Assembly: GCA_030681475.1 (NCBI GenBank)
Contig: JAUXWT010000064.1
Span: 1 to 54,805 of the forward strand
Direction: 5' to 3'
From: Bacteroidales bacterium
GTDB taxonomy: Bacteria > Bacteroidota > Bacteroidia > Bacteroidales > FEN-979
DNA length: 54,805 nucleotides
Part shown: one piece after another, positions 4,901-54,680 of the stretch
Numbering within the stretch: position 1 is the first letter of the stretch
Layout of the letters: each line of letters begins with the position of its first letter
Notes under the pieces: generated by a model
Told to the model about the DNA's origin: nothing
Database searches by the model: none
Seen by the model: the letters and a program-made list of their open reading frames with translations, nothing else
Position numbers and translations under genes: made by a program

Positions 4901-4923
4901 TTAAACAAACTGACCCCAACCTG

Positions 4924-7900
4924 ATGAAAAGACTACTGAACCTTTTTTGCCTGACATGTTTGCTCTTTACTTTTTCGACTGTTTTTGGTCAAAATAATAA
5001 AAATGTGCCTGCCCGAAAATGGATCTACGACCAGTTGGATCCCCGCGTGGACAATATGAGTTACTGGATGACCATGGCTGAAAAGGGGCTTACACCATAT
5101 AATCCGGACATCCCATTGCCTCCTGCCATATTTAAAGGCAGTCAGATCAGGGCGCATGGGGTAAGAACGACAAATTCGCCGGATGTCCCTGTTACCAACC
5201 TGACCAATGTCACTGAAAGTGAAAACTCCGTTTTTATCGACCCGAATAATGCCAATTACATACTGAACTCCAACAATTCAACTTCATGGAGCGGCAGTAC
5301 TGTTGGGTCAGTTTACGGAGCAAACTATTTCCAGTCATCCAATGCCGGAATAGGCTGGGTTGGAACCCCGAATGGGGCAGGGGGTACAAACCGCGGCGAC
5401 CCCACAACAGCCATCGGATTGAATGGCCGGGAATATGTAAACTTTATTAGCAGCGGTTCCGGACAGGGGATTGCATATTCTGATAACGGAACTTCCTGGT
5501 CAACGGCATCCATAGCGCCAAATCCCGGCACACTGGCCGATAAAAATCACATGTGGATCGATAACAAAATTACCAGTCCGTATGAAGGGAATCTTTATGT
5601 GGCGTGGACTGATTTTGGTGGAACCTACAATTACCAGGTTTTGTTGTCCCGGTCAATAGATGATGGGGCGACATGGTCGGCAAAATTGCCCGTCTCGGGC
5701 AGTATTTCCACCTTTAACCATGGGGTTAACCTTCAGACAGGACCTGGCGGAGAGGTATATGCCATATGGGCGACCTATCCGAGTTCAGGCCTTACGGAGG
5801 AAGGTATTGGCTTCACCAAATCATTAGATGGCGGTGTAACCTTTTCGACCGCCACAAAAATTATTTCAAACATCAGGGGAATACGTGAAACAGGCGTGCA
5901 GAAAAACATGCGCGTTAACTCCTTTCCTGTAATGGCTGCGGACATCAGCGGAGGTCCCAATAACGGAAATATTTATGTTGTCTGGACCAATATTGGCATT
6001 CCCGGAATAAACACAGGCACCAATAAAAGTGTCTACATCATTCGGTCAGTCAACGGAGGAACGTCATGGTCAACTCCCGTTCGGGTAAACCAGGGAACCT
6101 ATGCAGATGGCAAGGAAGCCTACTTTCCGTGGATCAGCTGTGACCCTGTTACAGGTGTGCTGACTGTTGTGTTTTATGATGACCGGAATGTCTCGAGCAC
6201 CCAGTGCGAGGTTTTTACTGCTTATTCAACTGATGCAGGCACCACCTGGACTGATTTCCAGGTCAGTGATGTGGCTTTTACGCCAACTGCAATTCCGGGC
6301 CTCGCCAGCTCATACATGGGTGATTACCTGGGCATAACATCAAAAGGTGGAAAAGTATATCCATGCTGGACAGATAACCGGGGTGGCATCTTCATGACCT
6401 ACGTCTCGCCATTTGAACTGGGACTGAACGCCGACTTTTTTACGAACAGCACAACCATTTGCACAGGTTCGGGTGTGACATTCACCGATGTATCCACCGG
6501 TCCGCCAATATCCTGGACATGGAGTTTTCCGGGCGGAACACCTTCAAGTTATATCGGACAAACGCCTCCTGCCATCACCTACAGTGCACCAGGTTCCTAT
6601 GATGTCTCCCTGACCGTATCTGATGGGGTGACATTTGATACGGAGACTAAAACCGGTTTCATCACGGTTAAGAATGTGATTGCAGGTTTTACAGGGGCGC
6701 CAACGACCGTCGTTGTAGGAAATACAGTAACCTTCACCGATAATTCGTTGTGTGGCCCGGCAACATGGACATGGTCGTTTCCCGGAGGTTCTCCCGCTTC
6801 GTTTACCGGGCAAACTCCCCCTGCGATTTTATACAATACCCTTGGAACTTATGATGTTTCCCTGACCGTTACCAAGCCGGGCGGATCAGATACGAAGACC
6901 CGGACAGGGTATATCTCCGTTGTGCCGCCAATATTCAACATAGCCAATGGTACCGTGACCACCTGTACCGGCGATTTCTATGACTCAGGAGGCCCTGCAG
7001 ACGCTTATCAGAACAATGAAACTTTCACGGAAACCTTTTATCCATCCACTCCCGGCGCCATGATGCGGTTTACCTTTACATCGTTCAGTACGGAACTGGA
7101 TTACGACACATTGACAATCTATAACGGGATCAACACCTCAGCGCCAATCATTGGTAAATATCACGGTACCACAGGTCCCGGGACGGTCACTGCATCAAAT
7201 CCATCCGGCGCTCTTACATTCCGGTTCTATTCCGATGCATACGTTACCGCGGCGGGATGGGCTGCATCCATAAGCTGTTACAGCATCACGGATCCTCCGG
7301 TGGCTGATTTTTCTGCCTCGACCACAACACCTGTTGTCGGACAAACTGTGACGTTCACCGACCTGTCGTCAAACGCACCGACTTCATGGGCCTGGTCTTT
7401 CAACCCGCCAACGGTGACCTATGTTGGAGGTACAACCGCTTCCTCAAAGAATCCCCAGGTACAATTTTCTGCTCTCGGCATGTATACAGTTACTTTAACT
7501 GCCACCAATGCATATGGTTCTGATGCCGAGATAAAAACGAATTATATCAATGTGACGAATTGTACATATACCACACTGCCATTCACCGAAAATTTCCCGG
7601 GAACGACCATACCCAATTGCTGGTCACAAGTTGACAACCAGGGCAACGGGCAGGTCTGGGAATTCGGCGTGATCACCGGCCAGAGCCCCAACCCGGCACT
7701 AACAGGGAACTATGCCTATTTGGACAGCGATACTTATGGCAACGGTAATTCACAAAATGCAGATCTCATATCACCTACCCTCAATTTATCCGCTTATACA
7801 GGCATCACATTGCAGTTCAGCCATTATTTTAAGAGTTATTCCGGCTCATCGGGAACCCTGTCATACAGCATTAATAACGGTTCGACCTGGGCCCAAATCC

Positions 7901-8859
7901 AGCAGTTTACAACCACCTCTGCATCAAACCCAGTTACATTCAACCAGGTTCTGCCAGCACTTGCAGGGCAGCCTCAGGTAAAATTCAAATGGAATTATAC
8001 AGGCTCATGGGGTTGGTACTGGGGAATAGACAATATCCAGGTCACCGGAACCTGTATTTCAACACTTCCGGTAAGTGTTTCGATTTCGGCTTCAGCCAAC
8101 CCGGTTGATCAGGGAGTGCCGGTAACATTCAACGCAATCGTTGTAAATGGGGGAACATCCCCGGTTTATCAATGGAAAATCAACAATATCAATGTCGGAA
8201 CAAACGCTGGTTCATATCAGTATATACCTTCCGATGGTGATCTGGTTTCGTGTGTTTTGACATCGAATGCCGCATGTGTTTCCGGTAATCCAGCCACTTC
8301 GAATGTGGTGACGATGACGGTGAACAGCGTGCCGGTCAACCTGACCGTTAACAACATCACGGTTACAGGTACCCAGTGTTTTAATGCCGTTCAGACCATC
8401 TTTGTGGCAGGAAGCGGGAATAACTTCAGTGTTGTGAACGGCGGCAATGCAACCATGATCGCGGGACAAAATATCCTTTACTATCCGGGAACAACTGTTG
8501 AACCCGGCGGGTATCTTTACGGCTATATTGCCCCCGGAGGTCCATTTTGCAATCCGCCGACAAAACCGGCAGTTCTTACAGGGAACAATGAAAAGAGTGC
8601 AAGGCTTGAAAAAGATTTTTTCCGTATTTATCCAAATCCGACAACCGGGGAATTCACACTGGCTTTGAACGGGTATGTGCCTTCGGAGAAGATCAGTGTC
8701 GCAGTTTATGACATGAACGGCGGAATCGTTCTCTCCGGGGAGATTACCGATGAGATGAAACATGTATTCTCACTCTCCGGCAAACCGGCCGGTCTTTACC
8801 TGATCAGGGTCATTTCCGGAAACCAGCATGGTTCATCCAGAATTATCAAGGGTGAATAA
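4924..8859 (+). CDS. Giant secreted protein with sialidase-like (BNR) beta-propeller head and T9SS sorting domain
   Basis: The 1311-aa protein has a signal peptide ending near VFGQ. Residues about 97-503 contain repeated Asp-box motifs (SIDDGATW, SLDGGVTF, SVNGGTSW, STDAGTTW), the mark of a BNR/sialidase-type propeller. Asp boxes alone do not prove sialidase activity, and a catalytic Arg triad or Tyr/Glu pair was not located. After it come two PKD domains (503-672), CUB (681-786), a third PKD (791-879), cleaved adhesin (884-1046), Ig-like (1056-1140), 3-coathanger (1140-1224) and a type A T9SS tail (1232-1311). From the first PKD to the CUB it closely parallels the 854 product, indicating tandem duplication or cassette exchange. 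It starts 23 bp after the previous stop and is probably in the same operon. Confidence 0.9.
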   Translation: MKRLLNLFCLTCLLFTFSTVFGQNNKNVPARKWIYDQLDPRVDNMSYWMTMAEKGLTPYNPDIPLPPAIFKGSQIRAHGVRTTNSPDVPVTNLTNVTESENSVFIDPNNANYILNSNNSTSWSGSTVGSVYGANYFQSSNAGIGWVGTPNGAGGTNRGDPTTAIGLNGREYVNFISSGSGQGIAYSDNGTSWSTASIAPNPGTLADKNHMWIDNKITSPYEGNLYVAWTDFGGTYNYQVLLSRSIDDGATWSAKLPVSGSISTFNHGVNLQTGPGGEVYAIWATYPSSGLTEEGIGFTKSLDGGVTFSTATKIISNIRGIRETGVQKNMRVNSFPVMAADISGGPNNGNIYVVWTNIGIPGINTGTNKSVYIIRSVNGGTSWSTPVRVNQGTYADGKEAYFPWISCDPVTGVLTVVFYDDRNVSSTQCEVFTAYSTDAGTTWTDFQVSDVAFTPTAIPGLASSYMGDYLGITSKGGKVYPCWTDNRGGIFMTYVSPFELGLNADFFTNSTTICTGSGVTFTDVSTGPPISWTWSFPGGTPSSYIGQTPPAITYSAPGSYDVSLTVSDGVTFDTETKTGFITVKNVIAGFTGAPTTVVVGNTVTFTDNSLCGPATWTWSFPGGSPASFTGQTPPAILYNTLGTYDVSLTVTKPGGSDTKTRTGYISVVPPIFNIANGTVTTCTGDFYDSGGPADAYQNNETFTETFYPSTPGAMMRFTFTSFSTELDYDTLTIYNGINTSAPIIGKYHGTTGPGTVTASNPSGALTFRFYSDAYVTAAGWAASISCYSITDPPVADFSASTTTPVVGQTVTFTDLSSNAPTSWAWSFNPPTVTYVGGTTASSKNPQVQFSALGMYTVTLTATNAYGSDAEIKTNYINVTNCTYTTLPFTENFPGTTIPNCWSQVDNQGNGQVWEFGVITGQSPNPALTGNYAYLDSDTYGNGNSQNADLISPTLNLSAYTGITLQFSHYFKSYSGSSGTLSYSINNGSTWAQIQQFTTTSASNPVTFNQVLPALAGQPQVKFKWNYTGSWGWYWGIDNIQVTGTCISTLPVSVSISASANPVDQGVPVTFNAIVVNGGTSPVYQWKINNINVGTNAGSYQYIPSDGDLVSCVLTSNAACVSGNPATSNVVTMTVNSVPVNLTVNNITVTGTQCFNAVQTIFVAGSGNNFSVVNGGNATMIAGQNILYYPGTTVEPGGYLYGYIAPGGPFCNPPTKPAVLTGNNEKSARLEKDFFRIYPNPTTGEFTLALNGYVPSEKISVAVYDMNGGIVLSGEITDEMKHVFSLSGKPAGLYLIRVISGNQHGSSRIIKGE

Positions 8860-8979
8860 ATCGATTCTGATTGATCACCATCTTACCAGTAGGTATGTTA
8901 AAGCGCTTACGTCATTTTACAAAACAAAATCCTCATTATTATGAGACTGTTAAGTGGAATGTCAAACGATCAGATTTTT

Positions 8980-9068
8980 CTCTGTGAACCTCTGTGACTA
9001 CTCTGTGAACCTCTGTGTAACAAATAATTACACAGAGAACCACGGAGGAGACACGGAGGGCCACAGAG
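8980..9068. repeat. Long imperfect hairpin of CTCTGTGAAC-type repeats in the 8860-9256 gap
   Basis: The left arm at 8980-9020 repeats CTCTGTG about every ten bases, the loop is CAAATAA, and the right arm at 9028-9068 is its imperfect reverse complement (CACAGAG/CACGGAG units). The arms are about 41 bp with roughly 80% pairing. The design resembles the elements at 30696 and 46075, with direct sub-repeats inside inverted arms, but the unit differs. The rest of 8860-9256 holds no gene I can support, apart from the likely promoter of the next gene. Confidence 0.75.
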
Positions 9069-9202
9069 ATCATATGAAACAAGATTATTTATGTTTTCCT
9101 GGCCGGGTATCCCCAAATCAGTTCCTCTTGTATAATTGCGAGCTATCAGAAATACAGATGGAGAAATAATTTCTTCCCCCCATCAATTGTTAATTATTTC
9201 AC

Positions 9203-9210
9203 TAATTTTG
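9203..9210 (+). promoter_or_regulatory. Probable -7 box before the C25 peptidase gene
   Basis: TAATTTTG matches TAnnTTTG and lies 46 bp before the ATG at 9257, the same spacing as the 854 gene shows to its own box. A TTG at 9187-9189 is too close to be a canonical -33 box. Confidence 0.45.
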
Positions 9211-9256
9211 GAATGGCTGTTCATTTTGAGCTGCATTTTATTAAAAATTAGTGACT

Positions 9257-12200
9257 ATGAAAACTATCTACACTCTATCCCGAAGCATTACTTTCCTGCT
9301 GGCAATGCTCCTTCTGCCGGTCTTGGTATTTACCGGAAATGTTCAATTGAATAACGGAAAAACCGCCGTTTCATTCAAAGAGAAAGACTATCAGAAAATA
9401 GTGTTTTCAAGCTCAATCGCGGGTTTTTCCTTTGCCGAAGTCAACGCCCCGGCCGGAATGTTTTCAATGCTGTCGATCGATGGTTTTGGTAAAAGGAATA
9501 TTGAAGGGGAACCCTCTTTGCCTGTTTACAGAAAACTTATCGAGGTACCGGTAAACGCCACTTTCAAAGTGAAGATTATCAGGCAGCATTACCAGGAGAT
9601 CGTTCTTAATGAAGTTGGCGTCAAAACGCCTGTTTTTCCCGCACAACCGCCCCTGTCAAAAGGTGACGACCCAATAAAAGTCCCATTTATTTATTCCAAG
9701 GATGTATATTTCACCGATGGTTGGATTGCGGACGACCTGGCCACCGTGAGTTTTATCGGAACGATGCGTGCGATTAACCTGGCCAGGATTGATATTTCAC
9801 CGGTTCAATACAACCCTGTGGAAAACAAACTACGGATCTACGATGAACTTGAAGTTGAGATCATATTTGAAAATGCAGATATTCCGGCAACGATTGAATT
9901 GAAAAGTTCAAAAGCCTCGCCATATTTCAACAGCATGTACCGGATGGTGGAGAATTTCAAACCCAATCCGATGACCGATGAGTTGATAACCTCAGCACCG
10001 GTTACTTACGTGATCGTTTCTGACCCCATGTTTCAGGCAACTTTACAACCTTTCATTGCCTGGAAAAAGAAAAAGGGTTTCAGGGTGATCGAAGGATATA
10101 CCAATAATCCTGCAGTTGGCAATACAACAACAACGATCAAAGCGTGGCTCCAGGGATTATACTCCTCACCTCCGGCTGGTTACAATGCACCGAGTTTTGT
10201 ATTGTTTATCGGCGATGTGGCACAGGTCCCTGCATGGGCAGGAGGCGCTGGTTCTCATTATACCGATCTGCGGTATTGTGAATATACCAATGATAACCTG
10301 CCGGAAGTCTATTATGGTCGTTTCTCAGCAACTTCAGTTGCACAACTCCAACCCCAGGTTGATAAAACGCTTGAGTATGAGCAATACCTGATGCCCGATC
10401 CCTCCTTTTTGAATGAGGCGGTTATGGCTGCCGGCGCCGATGCCAGTTTCCAGACACACAGCAACGGACAGATCTATTATGGCACCGAGAATTACTTCAA
10501 TGCAGCACATGGAATTTTATCGCACACGTACCTTCAGCCGGAACCTTCAGGGGGAAACTATTCCCAGAACATAAAAAATAACGTATCAAGCGGTGTGTCA
10601 TTTGCTAATTATACAGCCCATTGCAGTGAAAACGGCTGGGCCGATCCCAGTTTTGTGATCTCCGATATTGCCAGCCTTACCAATGCCCATAAATACTGCC
10701 TGATGGTGGGAAATTGCTGCCTGTCGGCCAAATTCGATGTGAACAGTTTTGCCGAGGAGCAACTCCGGGCAGTCAACAAGGGTTCGGTCGGGTATATCGG
10801 TGGCTCCAACAATACCTATTGGGATGAGGACTATTGGTGGGGTTGCGGTTTCAAGAGTGTGGTACTGCACCCGGCCTATGATCCTGCCCATATCGGCGCC
10901 TATGATGGCGCTTTTCACGATCACGGGGAACCTGTTGCCGACTGGTTCGTGACCCAGGGACAAATGTTCGTTTGCGGAAATTATGCAGTAGAAGAATCCA
11001 ATACAAGCCGGAAGCAATACTATTGGGAGATATACCACCTGATGGGTGACCCGTCGCTGATGATCTATTATTCCGTACCACCGGCGCTTACCGCATCCTA
11101 TCAAAGTCCCCTGATGATTGGCATGACAACCCTTACAGTGAATACAGCGCCCTATGCCTATATCGCCTTGTCGATGAACGGCATCCTGCTTGATGCCAGG
11201 ATTGCTGACGCCACTGGAGCGGCAACTCTTGCTTTTCCGGCGCTGAACACACCTGGAACCGCCGATATCGTGATCACCAAACAAAACAGGCAACCACATA
11301 TCAGCACGATACAAGTCATTCCGGCATCGGGGCCTTACGTGATCTATACGTCCAGCGCCATCAACGATCCACTTCCCACCGGAAACAACAACGGGCAAAT
11401 GGATTTTGATGAGATCAACAGTTTGAATGTTTCATTAAAAAATGTGGGTGTTCAGACCGCTACAAACGTGATCGCAACGTTGTCAACCACCAGTCCCCAT
11501 ATCACCATGACCGATAATTCTGAGAATTTCGGCAACATTAACCCGGATCAGACGATCACCATGAATGATGCATTTTCGTACATCGTGGCCAATGACATTC
11601 CCGATCAGCAGGTGGTTCCTTTCACCCTTCATGCCGTAAGCGGAGTTGATCTTTGGAATTCAAGTTTCAATATCACCGCTAATGCCCCTGCGCTTCAGGT
11701 TGGCGCCATGACCGTCCAGGATAACTGCCCGGGATGTAACAACGATGGCATCCTTGATCCGGGCGAAACTGCCAACCTCGTGATTGTTAACAGTAATAAC
11801 GGGCACGCCGGGTTGTCAAACATCAACGGAACCTTGTCTGTTGCAGGGGGATCAAGCCCCTACCTGGTGATCAATAATTCAACTTCCGTTATTGGCACCC
11901 TGGCAACCGGAGGTTCCGGCAATGCAGTATTTAGTGTTACAGCCGATCCATCCACCCCGATCGGTACGCCGGTTGACCTCAGTTACACGGTAACCGGAGG
12001 CACATCAGGGCAATACACCGCTACAGCGTTAAAACAGGTAGTGATCGGATTGATCCCCACATATATTATGTCGTCCACCTCGGTAACAACCTGTACCGGT
12101 TATTTTTATGATCCGGGCGGCCCTGCGGGGAGCTATAGTAACAGTCAGGACTTCACCATGGTAATCAATCCTGGCATGACCGGAAGCATGCTCCGGGTGA

Positions 12201-14044
12201 TATTCAGCAGTTTTGAGCTAGAAGCTCAGACCACCTGCAACTATGATTACCTTAAAATTTATGATGGAACCAACACCTCCGCCCCGCTACTGGGCGCCTG
12301 GTGTGGCACAAACTCACCGGGAACCATTATTGCCAACAATTCAACCGGTGCGCTGACATTTGTGTTTCACAGCGATGTATCCGTTACGAAGCCGGGATGG
12401 GAGGCCAGTGTCAGTTGCTTGTCAGGGGTAGTGATCAACCCTGCAACTTTCTCCGCCACTGCGGCCACCACCACACAGATCGACTTGGCCTGGACTCCCA
12501 ATGCTTCCAACCATAACGTGATGGTGGTGTGTGCCATGACGAGTGTTTTTGGTGTTCCGGTCAACGGAACGGTTTACAACCCCGGAAATGCCATTGCCGG
12601 CGGAGGAACGGTGATCTGTACTGATCCGGGCACATCCTTCAATCATTCCGGGCTGAATCCAAGTACAACCTATTACTATAAGGCTTTTTCATATGATGCA
12701 ACACACAATTATTCTTCAGGGATAACTACAAGCGCCAATACCGCCTGCGGTACCGTGGATGCTTTTCCTTGGGCAGAAGGGTTTGAAAACGCAGGTTTGA
12801 TACCGGCTTGCTGGTCGCAGGAGTATGTGACCACCCCCGGCCTGAACTGGACTTTTGTAAAGGGAAACGGCAGTTCGAATCCGGCGACCGCACATGGAGG
12901 TAATTTCAATGCCTGCCTGAAAGATGCCTCATCTGCGGATAATATAACCCGTCTTGTTTCTCCAAAACTTAATCTTGCCGGCCTTCCTCAACCCCAACTG
13001 AAGTTCTGGCACACGCAGGCATTCTGGAGCCCGGATCAGGATCTGTTAACTGTTTATTACAGGAAATCTGCAACCGATCCCTGGAAATTACTTACGGTCT
13101 ATACCAGCAGCATCGCAACCTGGACATTGGAAACGATTCCGCTTCCGGAGGCTACTGATTCTTATTTCATTGCTTTTGAAGGCAACGCAAAATACGGTTA
13201 TGGCGTATGCGTTGATGATGTTGAAATATCGAGCGCCTGCCCTGCGATCTACCCGGTTGGCATTGAGATCATGGCATCGGCAAACCCGGTCAGTTCCGGA
13301 ACCAGCGTTATGTTTACGGCCACCCCTGCAAATGGCGGAACGGTTCCTGCTTTCCAATGGGAACTGAATGGGACAAACATTCCGGGTGCAACAAATTCAA
13401 GCTATGCTTATATCCCCGAAAACAGCGACGTGATCACGTGTCGGCTGACTTCCGACATCTCCTGTGCATCCGGTAATCCGGCCAACTCCAACGCGATTGT
13501 CATGATCGTCACAACCATTCCGCTTACCGTCACACTGTATGACCTCACGGTTACCGGTTCGCAGTGTTTTGATGCCGTTCAGACCATTACCGTGGCGGGC
13601 AGCGGACACACCTTTACGGTAACTAACGGAGGATATGCCACGATGATCGCCGGCCAGAACATCCTGTACCTGCCGGGAACGGCTGTCGTGTCGGGTGGGT
13701 ATATGTATGGTCAAATCGCCCCGGGAGGGCCATTCTGCCAGGCTCCGACGAAGCCGGCAGCAGTTACCGGGACAGATGAAATACACCCCACCGGCGGAAA
13801 AACCTTCTGGAAAATATATCCCAATCCGACCTCCGGCGAATTCACCCTGGAAATGGATGGCGATGTTTCATCAGAGAGAACCATCGTGGCAATCTATGGC
13901 ATGAAGGGGGAGAAGATCATATCTGCGGAGTTAATCCATGAAAGGAAGCATGAATTCTCTCTTTCAGGTATGCCTGCCGGGCTGTATCTGATCAGGGTTA
14001 TTTCCGGTGGTTTGACAGGCACGGTGAGAATAGTGAAGCAATAG
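9257..14044 (+). CDS. Gingipain-like C25 cysteine peptidase, T9SS-secreted
   Basis: The ATG at 9257 is preferred over the in-frame GTG at 9251; it gives 1595 aa with a signal peptide (MKTIYTLSRSITFLLAMLLL). A C25-type propeptide (about 27-230, with GEPSLP) precedes the peptidase domain (about 248-606). The expected catalytic His is His455 in YTAHCSENGW. The nucleophile is Cys487 or Cys488 in GNCCLSAKFD, and alignment with the usual CYTGKFD favours Cys488. Next are an Ig-like segment, two CARDB-like domains (about 697-925), CUB (944-1055), Fn3 (1058-1165), cleaved adhesin (1170-1330), Ig-like, 3-coathanger and a type A T9SS tail (about 1515-1595). Peptidase plus cleaved-adhesin architecture matches gingipains of Porphyromonas. 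It probably degrades extracellular protein. A fossil copy of its 3' end lies at 15310. Confidence 0.92.
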   Translation: MKTIYTLSRSITFLLAMLLLPVLVFTGNVQLNNGKTAVSFKEKDYQKIVFSSSIAGFSFAEVNAPAGMFSMLSIDGFGKRNIEGEPSLPVYRKLIEVPVNATFKVKIIRQHYQEIVLNEVGVKTPVFPAQPPLSKGDDPIKVPFIYSKDVYFTDGWIADDLATVSFIGTMRAINLARIDISPVQYNPVENKLRIYDELEVEIIFENADIPATIELKSSKASPYFNSMYRMVENFKPNPMTDELITSAPVTYVIVSDPMFQATLQPFIAWKKKKGFRVIEGYTNNPAVGNTTTTIKAWLQGLYSSPPAGYNAPSFVLFIGDVAQVPAWAGGAGSHYTDLRYCEYTNDNLPEVYYGRFSATSVAQLQPQVDKTLEYEQYLMPDPSFLNEAVMAAGADASFQTHSNGQIYYGTENYFNAAHGILSHTYLQPEPSGGNYSQNIKNNVSSGVSFANYTAHCSENGWADPSFVISDIASLTNAHKYCLMVGNCCLSAKFDVNSFAEEQLRAVNKGSVGYIGGSNNTYWDEDYWWGCGFKSVVLHPAYDPAHIGAYDGAFHDHGEPVADWFVTQGQMFVCGNYAVEESNTSRKQYYWEIYHLMGDPSLMIYYSVPPALTASYQSPLMIGMTTLTVNTAPYAYIALSMNGILLDARIADATGAATLAFPALNTPGTADIVITKQNRQPHISTIQVIPASGPYVIYTSSAINDPLPTGNNNGQMDFDEINSLNVSLKNVGVQTATNVIATLSTTSPHITMTDNSENFGNINPDQTITMNDAFSYIVANDIPDQQVVPFTLHAVSGVDLWNSSFNITANAPALQVGAMTVQDNCPGCNNDGILDPGETANLVIVNSNNGHAGLSNINGTLSVAGGSSPYLVINNSTSVIGTLATGGSGNAVFSVTADPSTPIGTPVDLSYTVTGGTSGQYTATALKQVVIGLIPTYIMSSTSVTTCTGYFYDPGGPAGSYSNSQDFTMVINPGMTGSMLRVIFSSFELEAQTTCNYDYLKIYDGTNTSAPLLGAWCGTNSPGTIIANNSTGALTFVFHSDVSVTKPGWEASVSCLSGVVINPATFSATAATTTQIDLAWTPNASNHNVMVVCAMTSVFGVPVNGTVYNPGNAIAGGGTVICTDPGTSFNHSGLNPSTTYYYKAFSYDATHNYSSGITTSANTACGTVDAFPWAEGFENAGLIPACWSQEYVTTPGLNWTFVKGNGSSNPATAHGGNFNACLKDASSADNITRLVSPKLNLAGLPQPQLKFWHTQAFWSPDQDLLTVYYRKSATDPWKLLTVYTSSIATWTLETIPLPEATDSYFIAFEGNAKYGYGVCVDDVEISSACPAIYPVGIEIMASANPVSSGTSVMFTATPANGGTVPAFQWELNGTNIPGATNSSYAYIPENSDVITCRLTSDISCASGNPANSNAIVMIVTTIPLTVTLYDLTVTGSQCFDAVQTITVAGSGHTFTVTNGGYATMIAGQNILYLPGTAVVSGGYMYGQIAPGGPFCQAPTKPAAVTGTDEIHPTGGKTFWKIYPNPTSGEFTLEMDGDVSSERTIVAIYGMKGEKIISAELIHERKHEFSLSGMPAGLYLIRVISGGLTGTVRIVKQ

Positions 14045-47478: not shown

Positions 47479-47509
47479 TTGAATTTATAAATATTTCACC
47501 TTAACTTTG
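47479..47509 (+). promoter_or_regulatory. Promoter of the five-gene envelope/protease cluster
   Basis: TTG at 47479-47481, a 20-bp spacer, and TAACTTTG at 47502-47509 match the Bacteroidota consensus exactly. Transcription would start near 47515, giving a leader of about 60 bases before the ATG at 47578. No other clear promoter is seen within the cluster, whose genes overlap or nearly touch. Confidence 0.7.
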
Positions 47510-47577
47510 TTCGGACAATGACCATTCCGGAGTTGCCGAAAATCCGGATTAAAGAGTAGGCAGAAATACAGGAAACC

Positions 47578-48753
47578 ATGTTTAATTCCAGTGTTTTAGA
47601 AGTTGTTATCGGACTTGTTTTTATCTATTTACTTTATAGTTTGCTGGCTACGATTATTCAGGAGATCCTTGCTTCCACTTTTAGCTTCAGGGCTAAAATA
47701 TTAGAACGGGCAATATCCAGAATGCTGGAGGATGAAAATGTACCTACTCCCAGGATCAACAGCATTCTTCATTTATTTAAAAGAACAGCCAATGCAGAAA
47801 ACAGCAAGTCCACTACTGAAACTTTTTACCATCACCCGCTTATAAAATTTCTGGGCGAAAATAAGCGCCACAGCAAACCTTCATATATTACGAGGGAGAC
47901 ATTCTCCAAAGTTTTAATTGATTTGCTCCGGGGTGACCAGGTCAAACCGGGAGATGACATAAAGCCATTGATCCAGAAAGCATTGGATGATAATAAAACC
48001 AACTGGGGAGGCGCTGAAATCAGCGCTGAAACGCTGAGTTATCTTAAATCTATTTGGGCTGATGCACAAGGTGACATCGAAAAGTTTAAAGAACTGCTTG
48101 GAAACTGGTTTGATGACACCATGGACCGGGCCTCGGGATGGTATAAAAAAAACACGCAGTTTATTTTGTTTTTTATCGGATTGGCATTGGCCATCACTTT
48201 CAATGTTGATACGATCAAGATCGCCGGAAAATTGCAGAAGGACCCCAAACTCAGGGAACAACTTGTACAGCAGGCCGATGCTTTTATTAAGGCACATCCC
48301 GACCTGGATCAGGAATTGGCATCGCAGAAAGCGGAATTGGAGACCATCAAATCAGAAAGCACCAAGAACCCTGACGCTGCAACAGCAGACAGTATCTCCA
48401 AAACGCAATACCTGGCCGCATCGGATGTTAAAAAATACGATTCCCTGATCGCAAGAAGAGACACCTTGCTGAACAGAGCGGAAGCGTTGATTACCAGAGA
48501 TATAAAAAATTCCAATGATCTTTTGGGATTAGGGTGGAAAACCTATGAATGTATTGGTTGTCGGTGGGAATGCTATCTTATGTCGTTATTGGGCTGGGTC
48601 ATCACTGCGCTGGCGCTGTCACTTGGCGCTCCCTTTTGGTATGATGTACTTAATAAACTCATGAAGGTACGCAATTCTGTGGCAAGTTCCACCTCCGATG
48701 ACAAGCAAAAACAACAGGATTCAAATGCTCCGAAAATTAAACGGGTGGGATGA
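47578..48753 (+). CDS. Multi-domain inner-membrane protein of an uncharacterised family
   Basis: The 391-aa protein has a transmembrane helix at the N-terminus (about 5-28), a cytosolic-sized region (29-190), a second helix (about 195-213), a Lys/Asp/Gln-rich helical stretch likely to form a coiled coil (about 215-325), and a C-terminal helix (about 333-358). Motif FDDTMDRASGWYKK (about 178-191) and the SLGAPFWYDVLNKL ending are, as far as I recall, hallmarks of a family widespread in bacteria but without a described function. Its stop overlaps the protease start by four bases (ATGA). It may be the membrane platform or sensor of the cluster. Confidence 0.8.
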   Translation: MFNSSVLEVVIGLVFIYLLYSLLATIIQEILASTFSFRAKILERAISRMLEDENVPTPRINSILHLFKRTANAENSKSTTETFYHHPLIKFLGENKRHSKPSYITRETFSKVLIDLLRGDQVKPGDDIKPLIQKALDDNKTNWGGAEISAETLSYLKSIWADAQGDIEKFKELLGNWFDDTMDRASGWYKKNTQFILFFIGLALAITFNVDTIKIAGKLQKDPKLREQLVQQADAFIKAHPDLDQELASQKAELETIKSESTKNPDAATADSISKTQYLAASDVKKYDSLIARRDTLLNRAEALITRDIKNSNDLLGLGWKTYECIGCRWECYLMSLLGWVITALALSLGAPFWYDVLNKLMKVRNSVASSTSDDKQKQQDSNAPKIKRVG

Positions 48754-49679
48754 TGAAAGACCATTCAGATAACTACTATTGGAGCGGGGGGGCGGAGGTA
48801 AAAAAAGACGATATGACGGACATTGAAATAAATTTCAGCCAGGCAAAAATCAACTACAATGCGTTGGTAGAATTACCAAATGATATGAAACAAACCTATG
48901 GGGAAAACGTTGTTGTTGCCGTCCTGGATTCGGGGTGCAATAAAAACCATAAGGATATCAGTGAAGGAATTCTTAGTGGTTATGATGCGCTGACTGAAAC
49001 CAATGAGATCAAAGATGCATCAAACAAGGGGCATGGAACATTTATTTGCGGACTGATTGCCGGACACACTTCCGGAAATGGAATTGTTGGGGTTGCACCT
49101 AAAGCAAAACTGTTACCGGTCAGAGTTATAGAAAATAATTCTGTTATCTCAAAAAACGTTTTAAAGGGACTAAACTGGTTGCTGAATATTTGCCCGATAC
49201 AACCAGATATTATAAATATGAGTTTTGATTTTTCTCCCGGCACTGATCTGAACGATTTTGAAGAACTATTTCGCAAGGCCAATGAAAAAAACATTTTAAT
49301 TGTTGCAGCAGGGCAAGATTATTATAATCCTTCAGACTCAGGAATTTTTTATCCGGCAGCCAACCCTTTTACATCAGCCGTGGCAGTATTGGATGATAAC
49401 ATTTTAGGCAATCCTGACTTTGGGGGGATAGATAATAGAATAAATTTCATTCTTCCAAGGTATAAATTCTATTCTGCTAATAATTCCAATTTCGTATTAT
49501 ATTCAGAAGATGAAGGTAGCAGCTTTGGTACAGCGGTTATAACAGGTGTTCTTGCATTGGCGACCTCATATAAAAAAAAGACCCAAACCGATAAAACAGT
49601 TATGACAATTTTAAACGAACATTTGCCAGTCTTTGATAAGACCCGATTTACTAACAACTTTAAAATCTGGAGACAATGA
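48750..49679 (+). CDS. Cytosolic subtilisin-like (S8) serine peptidase
   Basis: The 309-aa protein has no signal peptide and no propeptide, so it probably acts in the cytosol. The triad is visible: Asp60 in AVLDSGC, His95 in KGHGTFICGLIAG, Ser258 in GSSFGTAVITG. At the oxyanion position, where family members read AAGN, it reads AAGQ (Gln189), a notable substitution that could lower activity. The length fits a bare catalytic domain. It overlaps both neighbours by four bases. Parts of it are very AT-rich (49441-49500 is only about a quarter G+C). Confidence 0.88.
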   Translation: MMKDHSDNYYWSGGAEVKKDDMTDIEINFSQAKINYNALVELPNDMKQTYGENVVVAVLDSGCNKNHKDISEGILSGYDALTETNEIKDASNKGHGTFICGLIAGHTSGNGIVGVAPKAKLLPVRVIENNSVISKNVLKGLNWLLNICPIQPDIINMSFDFSPGTDLNDFEELFRKANEKNILIVAAGQDYYNPSDSGIFYPAANPFTSAVAVLDDNILGNPDFGGIDNRINFILPRYKFYSANNSNFVLYSEDEGSSFGTAVITGVLALATSYKKKTQTDKTVMTILNEHLPVFDKTRFTNNFKIWRQ

Positions 49680-51946
49680 TAAAAAGGATATTTACGATGG
49701 TTGTGGTCTGCATGATGACATTTTCATCTATCGCTCAGATTGCATCACATGATGCCTTGATATTATCCCGGTATCTCAGGCATGACCAGATTTCAAAAGA
49801 CAACTTCCTGACAAAACAGGAAACGGCTTTAAAGGAAGAACGGTCAGAATTAGAGAAGCTCGATCCTCAAAAAATAACAGCGCTTGAGTCGGAGAGAGTC
49901 GGAAACCGGATCGGGAAAATTGGAGCGATGCTGGAACAAATTGATCATGCCAAAGGGGATTCGATTTTGTCTATCCTGGAATTGTATTTCCCGGGAATCA
50001 AGAACAGTGGATCAACGGATCTGATCAATACAAGGCTGCAAGAGAATCATTTTTTTAAGAATTTTACCTATTCAGGCGAACCAAAGGGTTTTGTCGAAAA
50101 AAAGCAATTATCAATTTCTTCTCTCGCATCTTCAGTCGGCGGACTCGATGTCACTAACCTTGCGTACGGATTTGCCGATTTTTTAGTAAAACGGACAAAA
50201 GAGGAGTTGAATGTCGCCTTCTTCAGCAGGTTAAAGGAGACGCTGAATAAACCGAAATATGCCGATTTAAGAACTCTGTTTCCAAACACATGGGAATTGC
50301 TCGATGCCATTGGCAGTGAAATTTATGATTACAACAAGTACCTTCAAAACCTCAGGGAAGCTTTTCTTTCGGATCTCATCACCCTGGATGGAAATTTACC
50401 CGGCATCATACCGAATCATGAAGAATTTTTCAACAAACATTTTGGTTTGGCAGTAAGTTTAAATACAGCCTGTTATATCACAAGCTCACTCAAATACCAG
50501 GTGCATCCCGGCGACATTATTGACCAATACCCGTTGGATGATTTTTTTATTAAAAAGGGGGAAACCGAATACTTCAACAGGAACTGGAGCGGAGCAGTTC
50601 AAACGCTGCAACTGATCAGTGAATCGCTTCGTGAATCTGATGGCGGCGGGGAGAATTACTGGGTGAGTTTTCAGAAAGTGAAAGAACTTGTCGGTAACGA
50701 GGAGACTTTCCGGATATATCTTGGCCTTATATACCAGGTTGCCAAAAATCAGCGGTACGATTCCATAAAATTTGAGAAAGGCTCCCTGATCGCATTGTTG
50801 AACAAAGTGAATTTTGACTCCAATCATAGCGCATATAAAAGCTATATCTCAAATTTTGCCATGAAAGCAAATGACCTGAACGAAAAGATCAAGAGATATG
50901 CAAAGCCGGCCAACGATTCCGTGGCGGTTGAAAATTATGCCCTTTATTTCAAATCTTCTGTTTCCCTGATCGAATATTGCACGAAGGTGACCGATTTACC
51001 TGATTTTGACAAAGTTATTAAGACAGATCTTCACAAGGAACTTAAAAATTATTTCAAAATAACCTATGAAATTGCCGATCTGGTTACTGACATCAACCGT
51101 AAAAACTACTCTTCAGCCGTTAATCATGCCGTTACGGTTTATAATCTTGTAAGGACGAAACCCCTGGAAACAGAATTTAAAAGAATAACTCGATCTGTTG
51201 ACAGTCTGGAGAAATTACCAAAGGAATCGTTAAAGACCATGGAGAAGTCGCTGAAAATGTCACGGGATACACTGCAGCAGGCGGGGGCTTCGTTCAGTTT
51301 GTCAAAAGATCTGCTGCAAAAATTCGTAATGTATGGCACCTTTATGTCGAATGTGGCCACGGCAAAGAGTCCCGCTGAAGTTGAAAAAGCGATTGAAGCA
51401 GCAGCACTGCCATCAGGCAGTTCACGAATAAAAAGGGAAACATCATTTAATGTTGCTTTAAATGCCTATACCGGATTGTTTATCGGTTATGAACAGATAA
51501 CCGGGCTGGACAGCAAGAGGTTTGAGATCAACAATTTCGGTGTGGCAGCGCCAATCGGGGTGTCGGTCAGTACCGGTGGTCATTCTTTTTTGTGTCTGTT
51601 CCCGAAAAATGAAGGGCATTGGTCCTATTCAGCCTTTATTTCGCTGGTTGATCTTGGCGCTGTGGCTTCATTCAGGTTTCAGAACGGCGACTCCATTGCG
51701 CAGGCGCCCAAGATACAATTGAAGGATATCTTTTCCCCGGGACTGTTTTTCTCCTTAGGGTTTCCGAAAAGTCCGCTGTCGCTTAACCTTGGGGCCCAGG
51801 TGGGGCCGAATCTGAGGAATGTCAATGTCAAAGATGAGAACGGGGACATGGTCAATAAATACCAGGACAATGTTTATTGGCGGTTCAGCGCCTCGCTGGT
51901 CGTTGACATACCGATATTCAATTTTTATACTCGGTCTAAAAAATAG
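49676..51946 (+). CDS. Secreted helical protein with a C-terminal beta-barrel-like region, unknown
   Basis: The 756-aa protein starts with a signal peptide (MIKRIFTMVVVCMMTFSSIAQ). Residues about 25-560 are mainly helical and charged, with coiled-coil-like stretches (about 50-95 and 495-560). The last 150 residues (about 600-756) are strand-rich with alternating aromatic residues (YTGLFIGYEQI, HSFLCLFPKN, FSLGFPKSPLSLNLGAQVG) and end in FSASLVVDIPIFNFY, suggesting an outer-membrane barrel or beta-sandwich. I recognise no named family. Translation is coupled to the protease by a four-base overlap. It could carry the response of the cluster to the periplasm. Confidence 0.78.
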   Translation: MIKRIFTMVVVCMMTFSSIAQIASHDALILSRYLRHDQISKDNFLTKQETALKEERSELEKLDPQKITALESERVGNRIGKIGAMLEQIDHAKGDSILSILELYFPGIKNSGSTDLINTRLQENHFFKNFTYSGEPKGFVEKKQLSISSLASSVGGLDVTNLAYGFADFLVKRTKEELNVAFFSRLKETLNKPKYADLRTLFPNTWELLDAIGSEIYDYNKYLQNLREAFLSDLITLDGNLPGIIPNHEEFFNKHFGLAVSLNTACYITSSLKYQVHPGDIIDQYPLDDFFIKKGETEYFNRNWSGAVQTLQLISESLRESDGGGENYWVSFQKVKELVGNEETFRIYLGLIYQVAKNQRYDSIKFEKGSLIALLNKVNFDSNHSAYKSYISNFAMKANDLNEKIKRYAKPANDSVAVENYALYFKSSVSLIEYCTKVTDLPDFDKVIKTDLHKELKNYFKITYEIADLVTDINRKNYSSAVNHAVTVYNLVRTKPLETEFKRITRSVDSLEKLPKESLKTMEKSLKMSRDTLQQAGASFSLSKDLLQKFVMYGTFMSNVATAKSPAEVEKAIEAAALPSGSSRIKRETSFNVALNAYTGLFIGYEQITGLDSKRFEINNFGVAAPIGVSVSTGGHSFLCLFPKNEGHWSYSAFISLVDLGAVASFRFQNGDSIAQAPKIQLKDIFSPGLFFSLGFPKSPLSLNLGAQVGPNLRNVNVKDENGDMVNKYQDNVYWRFSASLVVDIPIFNFYTRSKK

Positions 51947-51952
51947 ATTCAA

Positions 51953-53043
51953 ATGAAACAGGTATACCCAGTTATCATCCTCCCGGGGATCACAGCAACC
52001 TATCTCCGTGACCAGTATGTGCTGCCGCCCGATGTCATCTGGTCGGTATTGACAAAAAAAACATGAAAACATCGCCCTGCATCCCGACAATTACCGGTAT
52101 GAAGCCATAGAACCGGCGCGGGTGCAGCCCGACCATATCTTCGAGATCGCCTACGAAGAGATGATCAATGAGTTGAGGTACAACCTCCGGGAAACTGACG
52201 ACAGGCCGGTGCCGGTAAATCCTTGTGGTTTCTATTGCATCGCCGTTCAAGGGATCTTTTGAAGCTATCATCAAGATCGCCACCGGCACTGCAAACCTTG
52301 GCACATCTGCTCCCAGCAGCCGCGAGCGTGAAGCGGCCAGGATCATCCCGTCGCTTTACCACCTCCTTCCCACCTGCGAAGGGATCACCGCGCCGGCTTC
52401 CATCAGCAAGGATGTATTTGACCCGGCCATGTGGCAGCAAAGCATCCTCGACACCCTGCAGGAATACATCCGGTTACATGGTGTTTCGGAAAAAAATCCG
52501 GCAAAGCAGGCAAAGGAGTTGTTTGACAGCCTGCTTCAGACGGCAAAATCACACCGTCAGCGGATAAACGGGTTGGATCTGAAAAACACCGGGCTGACCC
52601 ACAGCGATTGGCTGTGCATTGCCGGGGTTGATTCCACTACCCGCGTGGGCGTTGAGGTAAACAAAGATAAAACCGGCGTCTGTTTCAATTTCAACAACGC
52701 CGATCGTGCAAACAACTGGGGTAAGGCAGTGCCGGTGAAACAAAAAATGCTCACCGGCGACGGCACCGTACCGCTCAAAGCAGCCATCCCCGATTTTCTG
52801 GAGATGAAAAACATCGTCTGTTTAACGCCCGATGACTTCGGCTACTGGGAATTGCAGGACAAGGCGCTGGTAAAAGTCGCGGGGTTCCACGGTTTGATCA
52901 CCAACATGAACGTGATCCACCGGCTCATCGTGCGTCATTTCACCGGCCGCCCCGACGCCTATAAAAACACCTGGGGCAGGTCCCTGCCCGGGATCACGGA
53001 AAGGCAATGGGAACCACCGTTTGAGTTGTACTGGAAGAAATAA
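51953..53043 (+). pseudogene. Lipase-like alpha/beta hydrolase, frameshifted and lacking its nucleophile segment
   Basis: Segment A (ATG 51953 to TGA 52064-52066) reads PVIILPGITATYLRD, a lipase start with the oxyanion PG motif. At an eight-A run (52054-52061) the frame changes; segment B, one base offset, reads HENIALHPDNYRYEA and ends VPVNPCG. Segment C (52217-53043, a third frame) starts LVVSIASPFKGSFEA, goes on with GTANLGTSAPSSREREAAR, and keeps the catalytic Asp region (TGDGTVPL) and His (VAGFHGLITN). No frame between B and C has a GxSxG serine motif. In the LCAT/PGAP1-like family I recall, roughly 80-90 residues with YDWR and GHSMGG stand there. The 3' part is GC-rich (about 60% in 52381-52440), unlike its neighbours. 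Confidence 0.78.
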
Positions 53044-53072
53044 AGTTGATAACCGTTTACACAAGTCAATAA

Positions 53073-54680
53073 ATGGAAAATAACAACAAGCAATCTTTTG
53101 GATTTTTTTCTGAGATTCAGGGTTTTATATGGAAAATGATCATCGGCCTGGTATCCTTTGCCATCGTCGTCCCCTATTTAATAGATCAGGCTGGTGACAT
53201 CCTTGGAATACCACCTAAAGCGAGTTTTGCGATCATCCTGGTGATGTATTTCGTGACCCCACTCGTGTTTTTTGTCGTCTGGTTTGCAAAGCGGGATATC
53301 GAAGGCTTCAAACAGATTTTGGATCGTTCTCCTAAAGTCGGTTGTTACTATTACTCCTGGATTATTTTTGCACTGTTCGCCGCACTGGCGATCGTTTTTC
53401 CATTCAGTCCTGTTTTTTCAATCCTTTTTTATACCATTAGTTCGCTATTCCTGCTGAGCGTTTTTATTTATATTGGATATGTTATCTGGTTATACGCTTC
53501 ATCCGAATCTTCCGGTGACGGTAAGGGTTGCCATAGCCCCGGTATTCAATACAGGAAATTACGGAAACGACTGTCCAGTGAATTTGCCCTGCTGCTCGTG
53601 ATCGCAGTTTCAGCGGGGATACTCTATTTCAACAATGCATTCTTCAGAAATGAACATACAAACCAGTGCTATGTTGACAAAGAAAAATTTGAGATGGGTT
53701 TTAATGTGATGGAACTTAATTTAGGTCAGATCGGACCGCTGGATAATTTGGTCCAGCAGAAGTACAATGAACTGATCCGTGTTAATAGCCTTGGATCTAT
53801 TTCAGAGATCCGTTTATCGAAAAACAGGCAAATCACTCACTATCGGGCTCTTGATAAACCACTTAAAACTATTTTCCGATCCCTGGACACATTGGGTTCA
53901 ATCACACTGCAGAAAAATCAGATCAAAAGGAATGAAAAAAAATTAGTCATAGCTAAAATTAAAACAACCTATTATCTCCGAAAATTATCTGATCATCTTC
54001 AGAAACTTCACGGATTAATCGAAAAAGATCAACCTCAGAAAGTTTCCCAGGCCGATATTCAGAATTTTGAAAATATCCTGAATATGCCAAAGGCGATCAT
54101 CCAGAAAGCAGACCTGATATACAGCAACAGCTGGGCGGACATCCTGAGGACAGTTCAGGTTAAGGGGCTGTTCCTGTTCTTCATCGTGCTGTTATTCCTG
54201 CTTGCATTCTCCTTTCATGCAAGCATGGCAAACCTGGATGAACAGTATGAGGGGGTAAAAAAATCCATCAGTGGGAGGAAAATTGTTCTTACCGATCCGG
54301 AGTCGCCCGCGAAGATCCGGGAGATCCTTGAAAAACCAACCTTCCCCGAGATCAGGACCATTAAAATATTAATCTCCATCATCATTTTATTGATTGTTCC
54401 AATATTTAAGCCGGTAAACAAAGAAACGATCCGGCTTGACAGGCCATTATGGCAATTCAACCTACCCGGACTTCTTCTGGGGAGCAACCATCCCATTATT
54501 GTAAAACAGGAAACACCAATAAACTTTAATCCAGTGGACAATAGCAGGACGGAATACCAGATGGACAAGAAATACATAGATAGCGTGTTCAAAGAACAAC
54601 GTGAATCGATAATTAACTCGTTGAGCCAAACTATTGACTCCTCTGAAAAAGCGACCTACGACAAATTCAGACATCCATGA
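53073..54680 (+). CDS. Multi-pass inner-membrane protein with large loop, unknown
   Basis: The 535-aa protein has about five transmembrane segments in the first 190 residues (about 18-38, 49-70, 92-144 as two or three, 170-187), a large charged region with coiled-coil character (about 190-360), and two more segments (about 364-384 and 432-449), then a 90-residue tail. No catalytic motif or named family is recognised. It lies 29 bp after the broken hydrolase on the same strand and is the last gene of the cluster seen here. With the 47578 product it would form the membrane part of the putative system. Confidence 0.78.
   Translation: MENNNKQSFGFFSEIQGFIWKMIIGLVSFAIVVPYLIDQAGDILGIPPKASFAIILVMYFVTPLVFFVVWFAKRDIEGFKQILDRSPKVGCYYYSWIIFALFAALAIVFPFSPVFSILFYTISSLFLLSVFIYIGYVIWLYASSESSGDGKGCHSPGIQYRKLRKRLSSEFALLLVIAVSAGILYFNNAFFRNEHTNQCYVDKEKFEMGFNVMELNLGQIGPLDNLVQQKYNELIRVNSLGSISEIRLSKNRQITHYRALDKPLKTIFRSLDTLGSITLQKNQIKRNEKKLVIAKIKTTYYLRKLSDHLQKLHGLIEKDQPQKVSQADIQNFENILNMPKAIIQKADLIYSNSWADILRTVQVKGLFLFFIVLLFLLAFSFHASMANLDEQYEGVKKSISGRKIVLTDPESPAKIREILEKPTFPEIRTIKILISIIILLIVPIFKPVNKETIRLDRPLWQFNLPGLLLGSNHPIIVKQETPINFNPVDNSRTEYQMDKKYIDSVFKEQRESIINSLSQTIDSSEKATYDKFRHP

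Follow-up and report, generated by a model that had tools for sequence, protein, structure and literature searches.

A recurrent protease-centred gene unit with exchangeable effectors in a Bacteroidales genome

We analysed a stretch of 54,805 nucleotides from a Bacteroidales bacterium, here called the window, which is the entire contig JAUXWT010000064.1 (G000:C71:1-54805) of a draft genome (GCA_030681475.1, G000; 111 contigs, 98.67% complete). It holds five same-strand genes, A to E, and the contig ends shortly past E. An earlier note, made from the sequence alone, had described them as one coupled cluster of five genes, and what we find is a three-gene core, consisting of a membrane protein (A), a subtilase (B) and an exported protein (C), with two loosely attached genes (D and E). 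The order of A, a protease and C is fixed and recurs across several Bacteroidota families, and the class of the protease is exchangeable. We regard the module as a protease-centred gene unit with exchangeable effectors, and its A and C have no model in Pfam, NCBIfam or PADLOC and no solved structure. The features of the window are the following.

47479..47509, + strand: promoter-like box TTG-N20-TAACTTTG, read from the sequence, with 68 bp from the box end to A
47578..48753, + strand: A, predicted inner-membrane protein of 391 amino acids (hydropathy; relatives by sequence search)
48750..49679, + strand: B, subtilase (S8) of 309 amino acids, PF00082 at 2.6e-27, with no hydrophobic N-terminus and a short N-terminal part
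49676..51946, + strand: C, predicted exported protein of 756 amino acids, with a signal-like N-terminus, a helical middle and about 190 highly conserved C-terminal residues
51953..53043, + strand: D, broken LCAT/lipase-like gene, split over three frames into pieces at about 51953-52060, 52056-52232 and 52225-53040
53073..54680, + strand: E, membrane protein of 535 amino acids with seven hydrophobic segments by hydropathy, an orphan

The open reading frames (ORFs) of A, B, C and E and the two 4-bp overlaps joining A, B and C were as the earlier note had described them, whereas D is not intact. The same holds in part for its consensus promoter: the loose pattern TTG-N20-TAACTTTG, presumably a Bacteroidota-type promoter, would be expected about 0.012 times per 220 bp of one strand in a Markov copy of the window; the stricter version, which has TTTG as the first box, has no match at 47479-47509. 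The mixed base composition was confirmed, as the GC (guanine plus cytosine) fraction is 0.427 in A, 0.376 in B, 0.425 in C, 0.536 in D and 0.411 in E, compared with 0.469 for the window, and an assembly from different sources would fit both the composition and the exchange of enzymes described below.

Recurrence carries the main finding. A search with a C profile gave 18 close C loci (E below 1e-100), and in all of them the gene immediately upstream encodes a protease or contains a protease domain. Neighbouring genes were called here and below by a simple longest-ORF rule, and start sites and short genes can be wrong. The protease is a separate S8 gene in 15 loci (G000, G002, G011-G016, G018, G019, G036, G077, G166, G214 and G314) and, in three (G017, G020 and G293), a trypsin-like domain fused to A at its end. 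A itself lies upstream in 12 of the 18; in G166 a GH25 muramidase gene separates it from B. A survey of the class through A added five loci, two with S8 (L117, L122), two with A-trypsin-like fusions (L116, L139) and one with a separate trypsin-like gene in the position of B (L113); L140, L143 and L144 were left out because A was not recovered there as an ORF (3 of 33). Five divergent C-like genes were also found. The one in G220 is followed by a caspase-family gene, that in G230 is accompanied by an A fragment and an NlpC/P60 plus peptidoglycan-binding gene, and that in G176 is followed by a patatin-like gene with genes of the extracellular contractile injection system (eCIS) type nearby, while those in G329 and G262 have no such company. 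Recurrence in unrelated genomes, which the earlier note would have counted as support for the whole set, holds for A-protease-C in several families of the phylum, and A alone stands by hydrolases on plasmids of Pseudomonadota, but among the 41 genomes searched D and E were not found with the core outside the window genome. Two unnamed families tied to proteases in a fixed order are the mark of a working system that is not named in the libraries searched. We found no description of the A-B-C module in the literature listings searched, which is not proof of its absence; the accessible part of PMC8213781 has no mention of transmembrane, patatin, subtilisin, amidase or caspase, and lysozyme appears there once, in a reference.

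B is a subtilase and is predicted to be cytosolic, as had been read earlier. It has a PF00082 match of 96.3 bits (cut-off 21.8), and among solved chains it scores best against 7xr8, annotated as 'Major intracellular serine protease' (1.7e-24). The catalytic residues D60, H95 and S258 are present, and all 17 aligned S8 copies retain the triad. A hydrophobic N-terminus is missing in 16 of 17 S8 copies, the exception (L102_4) perhaps having a wrong start; such calls for A-linked proteins and for C come from a simple hydropathy measure, not from a signal-peptide predictor. In its domain, its solved relative and its triad B resembles S8 and intracellular subtilisins, but it is coupled to A and C, most module copies have ca. 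100 extra N-terminal residues, and the oxyanion hole seems to differ, as the subtilisin Asn is not Asn in B and is Asp or another residue in most S8 copies, the column being poorly aligned. An SH3-like N-terminal domain was also considered for B and was not confirmed, since one of six domains scanned alone gave SH3_5 at 0.082; SH3_3 matched one of 48 proteins downstream of A.

The trypsin-like domain is fused to the C-terminus of six A proteins (L052, L054, L055, L064, L116 and L139). These domains are related to the separate trypsin-like protein in the B position of L113 (BLASTP 8e-26 to 3e-5), and this protein (L113_2) matches Trypsin_2 at 1.4e-6, while the fused domains score weakly or not at all in Pfam. 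The trypsin-type His and Ser motifs are present in seven of the seven trypsin-like copies and the Asp motif in six. Such fusion argues for contact between A and its protease.

A has three hydrophobic segments, at about residues 9-27, 195-213 and 332-350, and a conserved GAPFW motif near the C-terminus; three segments are found in 47 of 67 A sequences. The lysine plus arginine counts on the two sides of segments 1, 2 and 3 (0.17/1.95, 3.66/3.27 and 1.73/3.10 in 41 sequences) favour an orientation with the N-terminus outside and the C-terminus inside, the middle segment being undecided by charge. With the C-terminus inside, the fused trypsin-like domain is predicted to be cytosolic, as are the separate proteases. 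A matches nothing in Pfam, NCBIfam or PADLOC at E <= 1 and gave chance matches alone against PDB sequences, and a structure model from four sequences was too poor for reading the fold (mean predicted local distance difference test score, pLDDT, 41.5). Named relatives are in metagenome-assembled genomes of Prolixibacteraceae (64% identity in the best segment) and Sporocytophaga (35%). Single-sequence searches found A in 9 of the 41 relatives and in 21 of the 296 genomes of the phylum, and a profile found it in 37 of the 395 genomes of the class; these counts and those for C include the own genome G000.

C is predicted to be secreted, as the earlier note had claimed, from the hydrophobic N-terminus found by hydropathy on the window C and on 27 of 28 related C ORFs, the exception being a detached end piece in L122. 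It has no convincing family in Pfam, NCBIfam or PADLOC, where matches were at chance level, nor a solved relative among PDB sequences, and the single-sequence model of its last 197 residues (mean pLDDT 32.3) is too poor to read a barrel fold. Profile searches found C in 13 of the 41 relatives and in 11 of the 296 genomes of the phylum, and there was no match on plasmids or in viral contigs. The part of C before the FFxRF motif differs with the protease, with 262-288 residues in five trypsin loci and 125-158 in 14 S8 loci; the window has 181, and its extra residues sit beyond the point where the conserved region begins. No FFxRF motif was seen in C of L117 and L139, and the C of L122 is split. 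The trypsin rows are ungrouped in the C tree, where L055 pairs with an S8 row (bootstrap/Shimodaira-Hasegawa-like approximate likelihood ratio test 96/87 and 93/96). Distances correlate between A and C (r 0.53; 5 of 2000 permutations) and between A and B (r 0.49; 43 of 2000).

We tentatively propose that A docks a protease without a signal peptide at the inner face of the inner membrane, that C is the matched exported partner, and that the two would jointly target the envelope during conflict or lysis. A would be an inner-membrane platform with its C-terminus inside, holding there a signal-peptide-less hydrolase, which would be a separate subtilase in the window and a fused trypsin-like domain elsewhere. 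C would be exported and matched to the class of the protease, and may be its substrate or its gate. Upon a trigger, the protease and C would jointly open or attack the envelope, most likely the cell's own, in programmed lysis or an abortive response, and possibly that of a neighbour. D and E would be accessory genes from an exchangeable pool, and the step of D would be lost in the window genome as the gene is broken. If A indeed holds or passes signal-peptide-less enzymes, this would explain how the orphan wall- and lipid-cutting neighbours described below reach their targets, and the A-trypsin fusions make the docking idea testable.

The company of A points in the same direction. There were 69 A loci, or 66 after dropping the near-duplicates L068, L080 and L125, and 48 of them have a same-strand downstream gene within 200 bp. 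The Pfam families of these genes were Amidohydro_2 (11), S8 (9), Amidase_2 (3), and GH25, patatin, GDSL lipase, DUF900 hydrolase and Trypsin_2 (1 each), so that hydrolase families were matched by 28 of the 48, assuming that no protein was counted twice; C itself makes up five more. Among the 29 upstream genes, in the matches listed (25 of 37 families), there were at least two vanadium haloperoxidases and at least one each of papain, CHAP, GH19 and Amidase_2. No such family had two members among 60 control genes more than 5.5 kb away, judging from the best 25 of 83 families, in which single members are possible. The wall-cutting families (Amidase_2 and GH25) were counted for an envelope role, and the wall-, lipid- and protein-cutting enzymes that recur beside the module together suggest envelope action.

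Relatives of A were also found in 13 plasmid records, of Pseudomonadota, Cyanobacteriota, Hymenobacter and, weakly, Nonomuraea. Among the eight whose surroundings were read, A adjoins an amidase in Caballeronia and Hymenobacter (with an S8 gene next in the latter). In Rhizobium NXC14 its neighbour is a patatin, and in Agrobacterium and R. rosettiformans it is a haloperoxidase, which in Paracoccus is separated from A by two small genes; no hydrolase or haloperoxidase partner was seen in Vitreoscilla and Nostoc. On the plasmids of Agrobacterium, Paracoccus and Rhizobium rosettiformans (L088, L091, L092), A follows the vanadium-dependent haloperoxidase gene within a conserved gene row. Another large group of A loci has an Amidohydro_2 gene of the 'HTHIF' type beside A, in 13 loci and usually without B or C (L060, L076, L121, L123, L125, L126, L129, L130, L132, L134-L137). 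Near A in three loci is a large membrane-anchored protein of one family (L061_13, L113_0 and L137_11; 1081-1404 amino acids), which could be a sensor.

Several observations weigh against envelope action by a docked protease and C. Neither the Amidohydro_2 proteins, which form the largest class among the neighbours of A, nor the vanadium haloperoxidases have an obvious target in the envelope, and no clear defence-gene signal was seen near the module among the 120 of 201 flanking genes scanned. A is missing in six of the 18 close C loci, which have B and C only, and there is no match to A anywhere in these genomes (G002, G011, G012, G014, G016 and G019). In the stretch read around the Sporocytophaga A-trypsin fusion (L052) there is no C. 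Since export is predicted for C but not for B, the two need not meet, and an enzyme fused to A cannot be released whole. The second segment of A shows no charge difference between its flanks (3.66 and 3.27). Distances of B and C are uncorrelated beyond chance (r 0.31; 264 of 2000 permutations). In addition, a single trypsin clade of C was not rejected (approximately unbiased test, p 0.061, after L117 and L139 had been removed as long branches), so that the longer C with trypsin may be one event.

In phage holin-endolysin-spanin cassettes a membrane protein of three segments is combined with wall enzymes lacking a signal peptide and an exported third protein. A with its three predicted segments, the wall enzymes without signal peptide and the exported C resemble this arrangement, but A is ca. 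390 amino acids long with a large internal domain, proteases and amidohydrolases occur besides wall enzymes, and A is missing from phage records. A wider but doubtful idea is that the A family would be a general inner-membrane docking or release platform for signal-peptide-less hydrolases in several phyla, serving either as the host's own counterpart of holin-endolysin or as a dedicated route of export. Its cargo would be exchangeable (subtilase, trypsin, muramidase, amidase, patatin, lipase or amidohydrolase), with C as the matched exported partner in Bacteroidota.

Protease-switch immunity would account for part of the same evidence, although we consider it rather improbable. Here an infection cue would activate the A-bound protease, a partner would be cut and the infected cell killed or arrested, as in the trypsin- and caspase-activated anti-phage systems. 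The exchange of subtilase and trypsin-like protease and the fusion of a protease to another component would suit this explanation, as would the caspase-family gene beside the divergent C at L104 (PF00656, 9.6e-18). There is also precedent in what the accessible part of PMC12799240 describes, namely trypsin-like proteases fused to defence proteins and caspases activating a nuclease. Those immune pairs (Hachiman, AVAST, canu) share with the module a protease that is fused to or stands beside its partner and an exchangeable protease class, whereas the module partners are an exported and a membrane protein with no nuclease of the metallo-beta-lactamase (MBL) type among the module genes, and no nuclease partner was seen adjoining the module in the window. 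B also falls far below the cut-offs of the IetS family (21.6 bits, cut-off 900) and of the mycosin equivalog of the type VII secretion system (96.6 bits, cut-off 278.75); it has an S8 domain like IetS and matches part of the PADLOC profiles (1.1e-7 and weaker), but, compared with IetAS, there is no ATPase partner among the module genes. A gave no match in 50,697 phage records and one locus, a rare case, in viral contigs, which says merely that phages do not carry A.

The defence-island location that the earlier note had pointed to was not borne out. The PADLOC scan (E <= 1e-10; the 120 of 201 flanking genes belonging to 22 module loci, with no control set) gave seven families: the PycC-type cyclase in two genes, with one more by a second model, and SspA, DndA, mad3, mad8 and an amino-acid transporter in one each. 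We read these as mostly generic enzymes, with no clear signal of a defence island. As a separate observation, PycC models match two to three flanking genes of module loci, and L054_12, L055_4 and L085_1, two to five genes from A, belong to one protein family, with a cyclase-type annotation in L085. The idea of a sensor-effector conflict system, put forward in the earlier note, is supported in part; its lipase effector is not, and its sensor-effector wiring would be putative.

To the left of A in the window there are a WYL regulator, a START-like gene and a small gene read as carbohydrate-binding module (CBM)-like. None of A to E was found at E <= 1e-6 in 11 congener stretches around the START-like gene. 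The small CBM-like gene is present in nine of these, beside START in four (L149, L150, L151, L153) and 5 to 7 kb off in five, and beyond it L149, L151, L153 and L155 have a lysine-rich small gene that the window does not have there. As the module is absent from the syntenic place in congeners, it was inserted or relocated in the window lineage; the right junction lies beyond the contig end. In G001, G002 and G012 an M28-like gene (71-77% identical among them) accompanies the intact D or a B-C pair, and a homologue of the window gene 15829 is nearby in G001, G012 and G016 (71-77%), which hints at a possible shared insertion spot (L098, L100, L102, L109).

This history bears on ordinary envelope maintenance, in which B would be a quality-control or maturation protease trimming C and the hydrolase neighbours would serve wall remodelling. 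The B-C pairs without A in 6 of 18 loci, the many A neighbours that are known wall enzymes and the chromosomal location of the module in the window are in line with it. However, the patchy presence evident from the counts for C given above, the absence from the syntenic place in congeners and the exchange of the protease class are together unlike housekeeping, and the enzymes lack signal-like N-termini, so we give maintenance a low probability.

That the hydrolases are eCIS cargo, with A aiding their loading or release, seems very unlikely to us. A stands beside sheath- and tube-type genes in L067 and L068, with sheath and tube identified in L068, and a C-like gene with a patatin-like gene lies near contractile-tail-type genes in L107, but L067 and L068 are near-duplicates. 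The tube gene PF06841, present in 7 of the 41 genomes searched, is absent from G000; three of the 9 relatives that have A carry it, compared with four of the 32 that lack A. We rejected eCIS as the general context of the module, as its own genome has no tube gene.

D had been proposed as a lipase-like effector, and this did not survive comparison with its intact relative L109_2 (433 amino acids, G001). Residues 1-36, 35-93 and 162-433 of the latter match D in three different frames, and residues 94-161 (about 68), which include the GxSxG motif at 138-142 (GHSMGG), have no counterpart in the window, whose copy thus lacks the nucleophile segment. Similarity to LCAT-type lipases (PF02450) is weak, at 17.5 bits for the last piece (cut-off 21). 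D is not a constant partner of the module either, since of the 41 genomes four contain its C-terminal piece (G000, G001, G005 and G010), and the three others have no match to A or C. In G001 the intact D adjoins L109_3, an amidase-like gene with 82-86% identity to those that directly precede A in L056 and L059, one of which has a weak CHAP match (0.0014), and this likeness suggests that D comes from the same exchangeable pool. With a broken lipase gene and an orphan E, the window alone is less telling than the recurrence.

The broken D raises the explanation that the island is a decaying remnant with no activity in the window genome, which we regard as unlikely. The three frames of D without a nucleophile and the contig end just past E would agree with decay, as would the 59 residues before the catalytic Asp of B, compared with 96-120 in ten other A-linked S8 copies. 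On the other hand, A, B and C are open, the triad of B is intact and three A-free S8 copies are shorter still (29-47 residues). The last piece of D is moreover 78-79% identical to its intact relative, with 79% over 270 residues, and the lesion is hence young or an assembly error.

E was found in one of the 41 genomes, its own, and neither D nor E gave anything convincing against PDB sequences. Residues 446-522 of E have chance-level matches to one toxin family (Pfam Ntox46 at 0.073, Tse6 chains at 0.018-0.022). Elsewhere in the window, at 854-14044, there are three consecutive very large exported proteins with near-identical C-terminal tails, which we take to resemble the sorting domains of type IX secretion.

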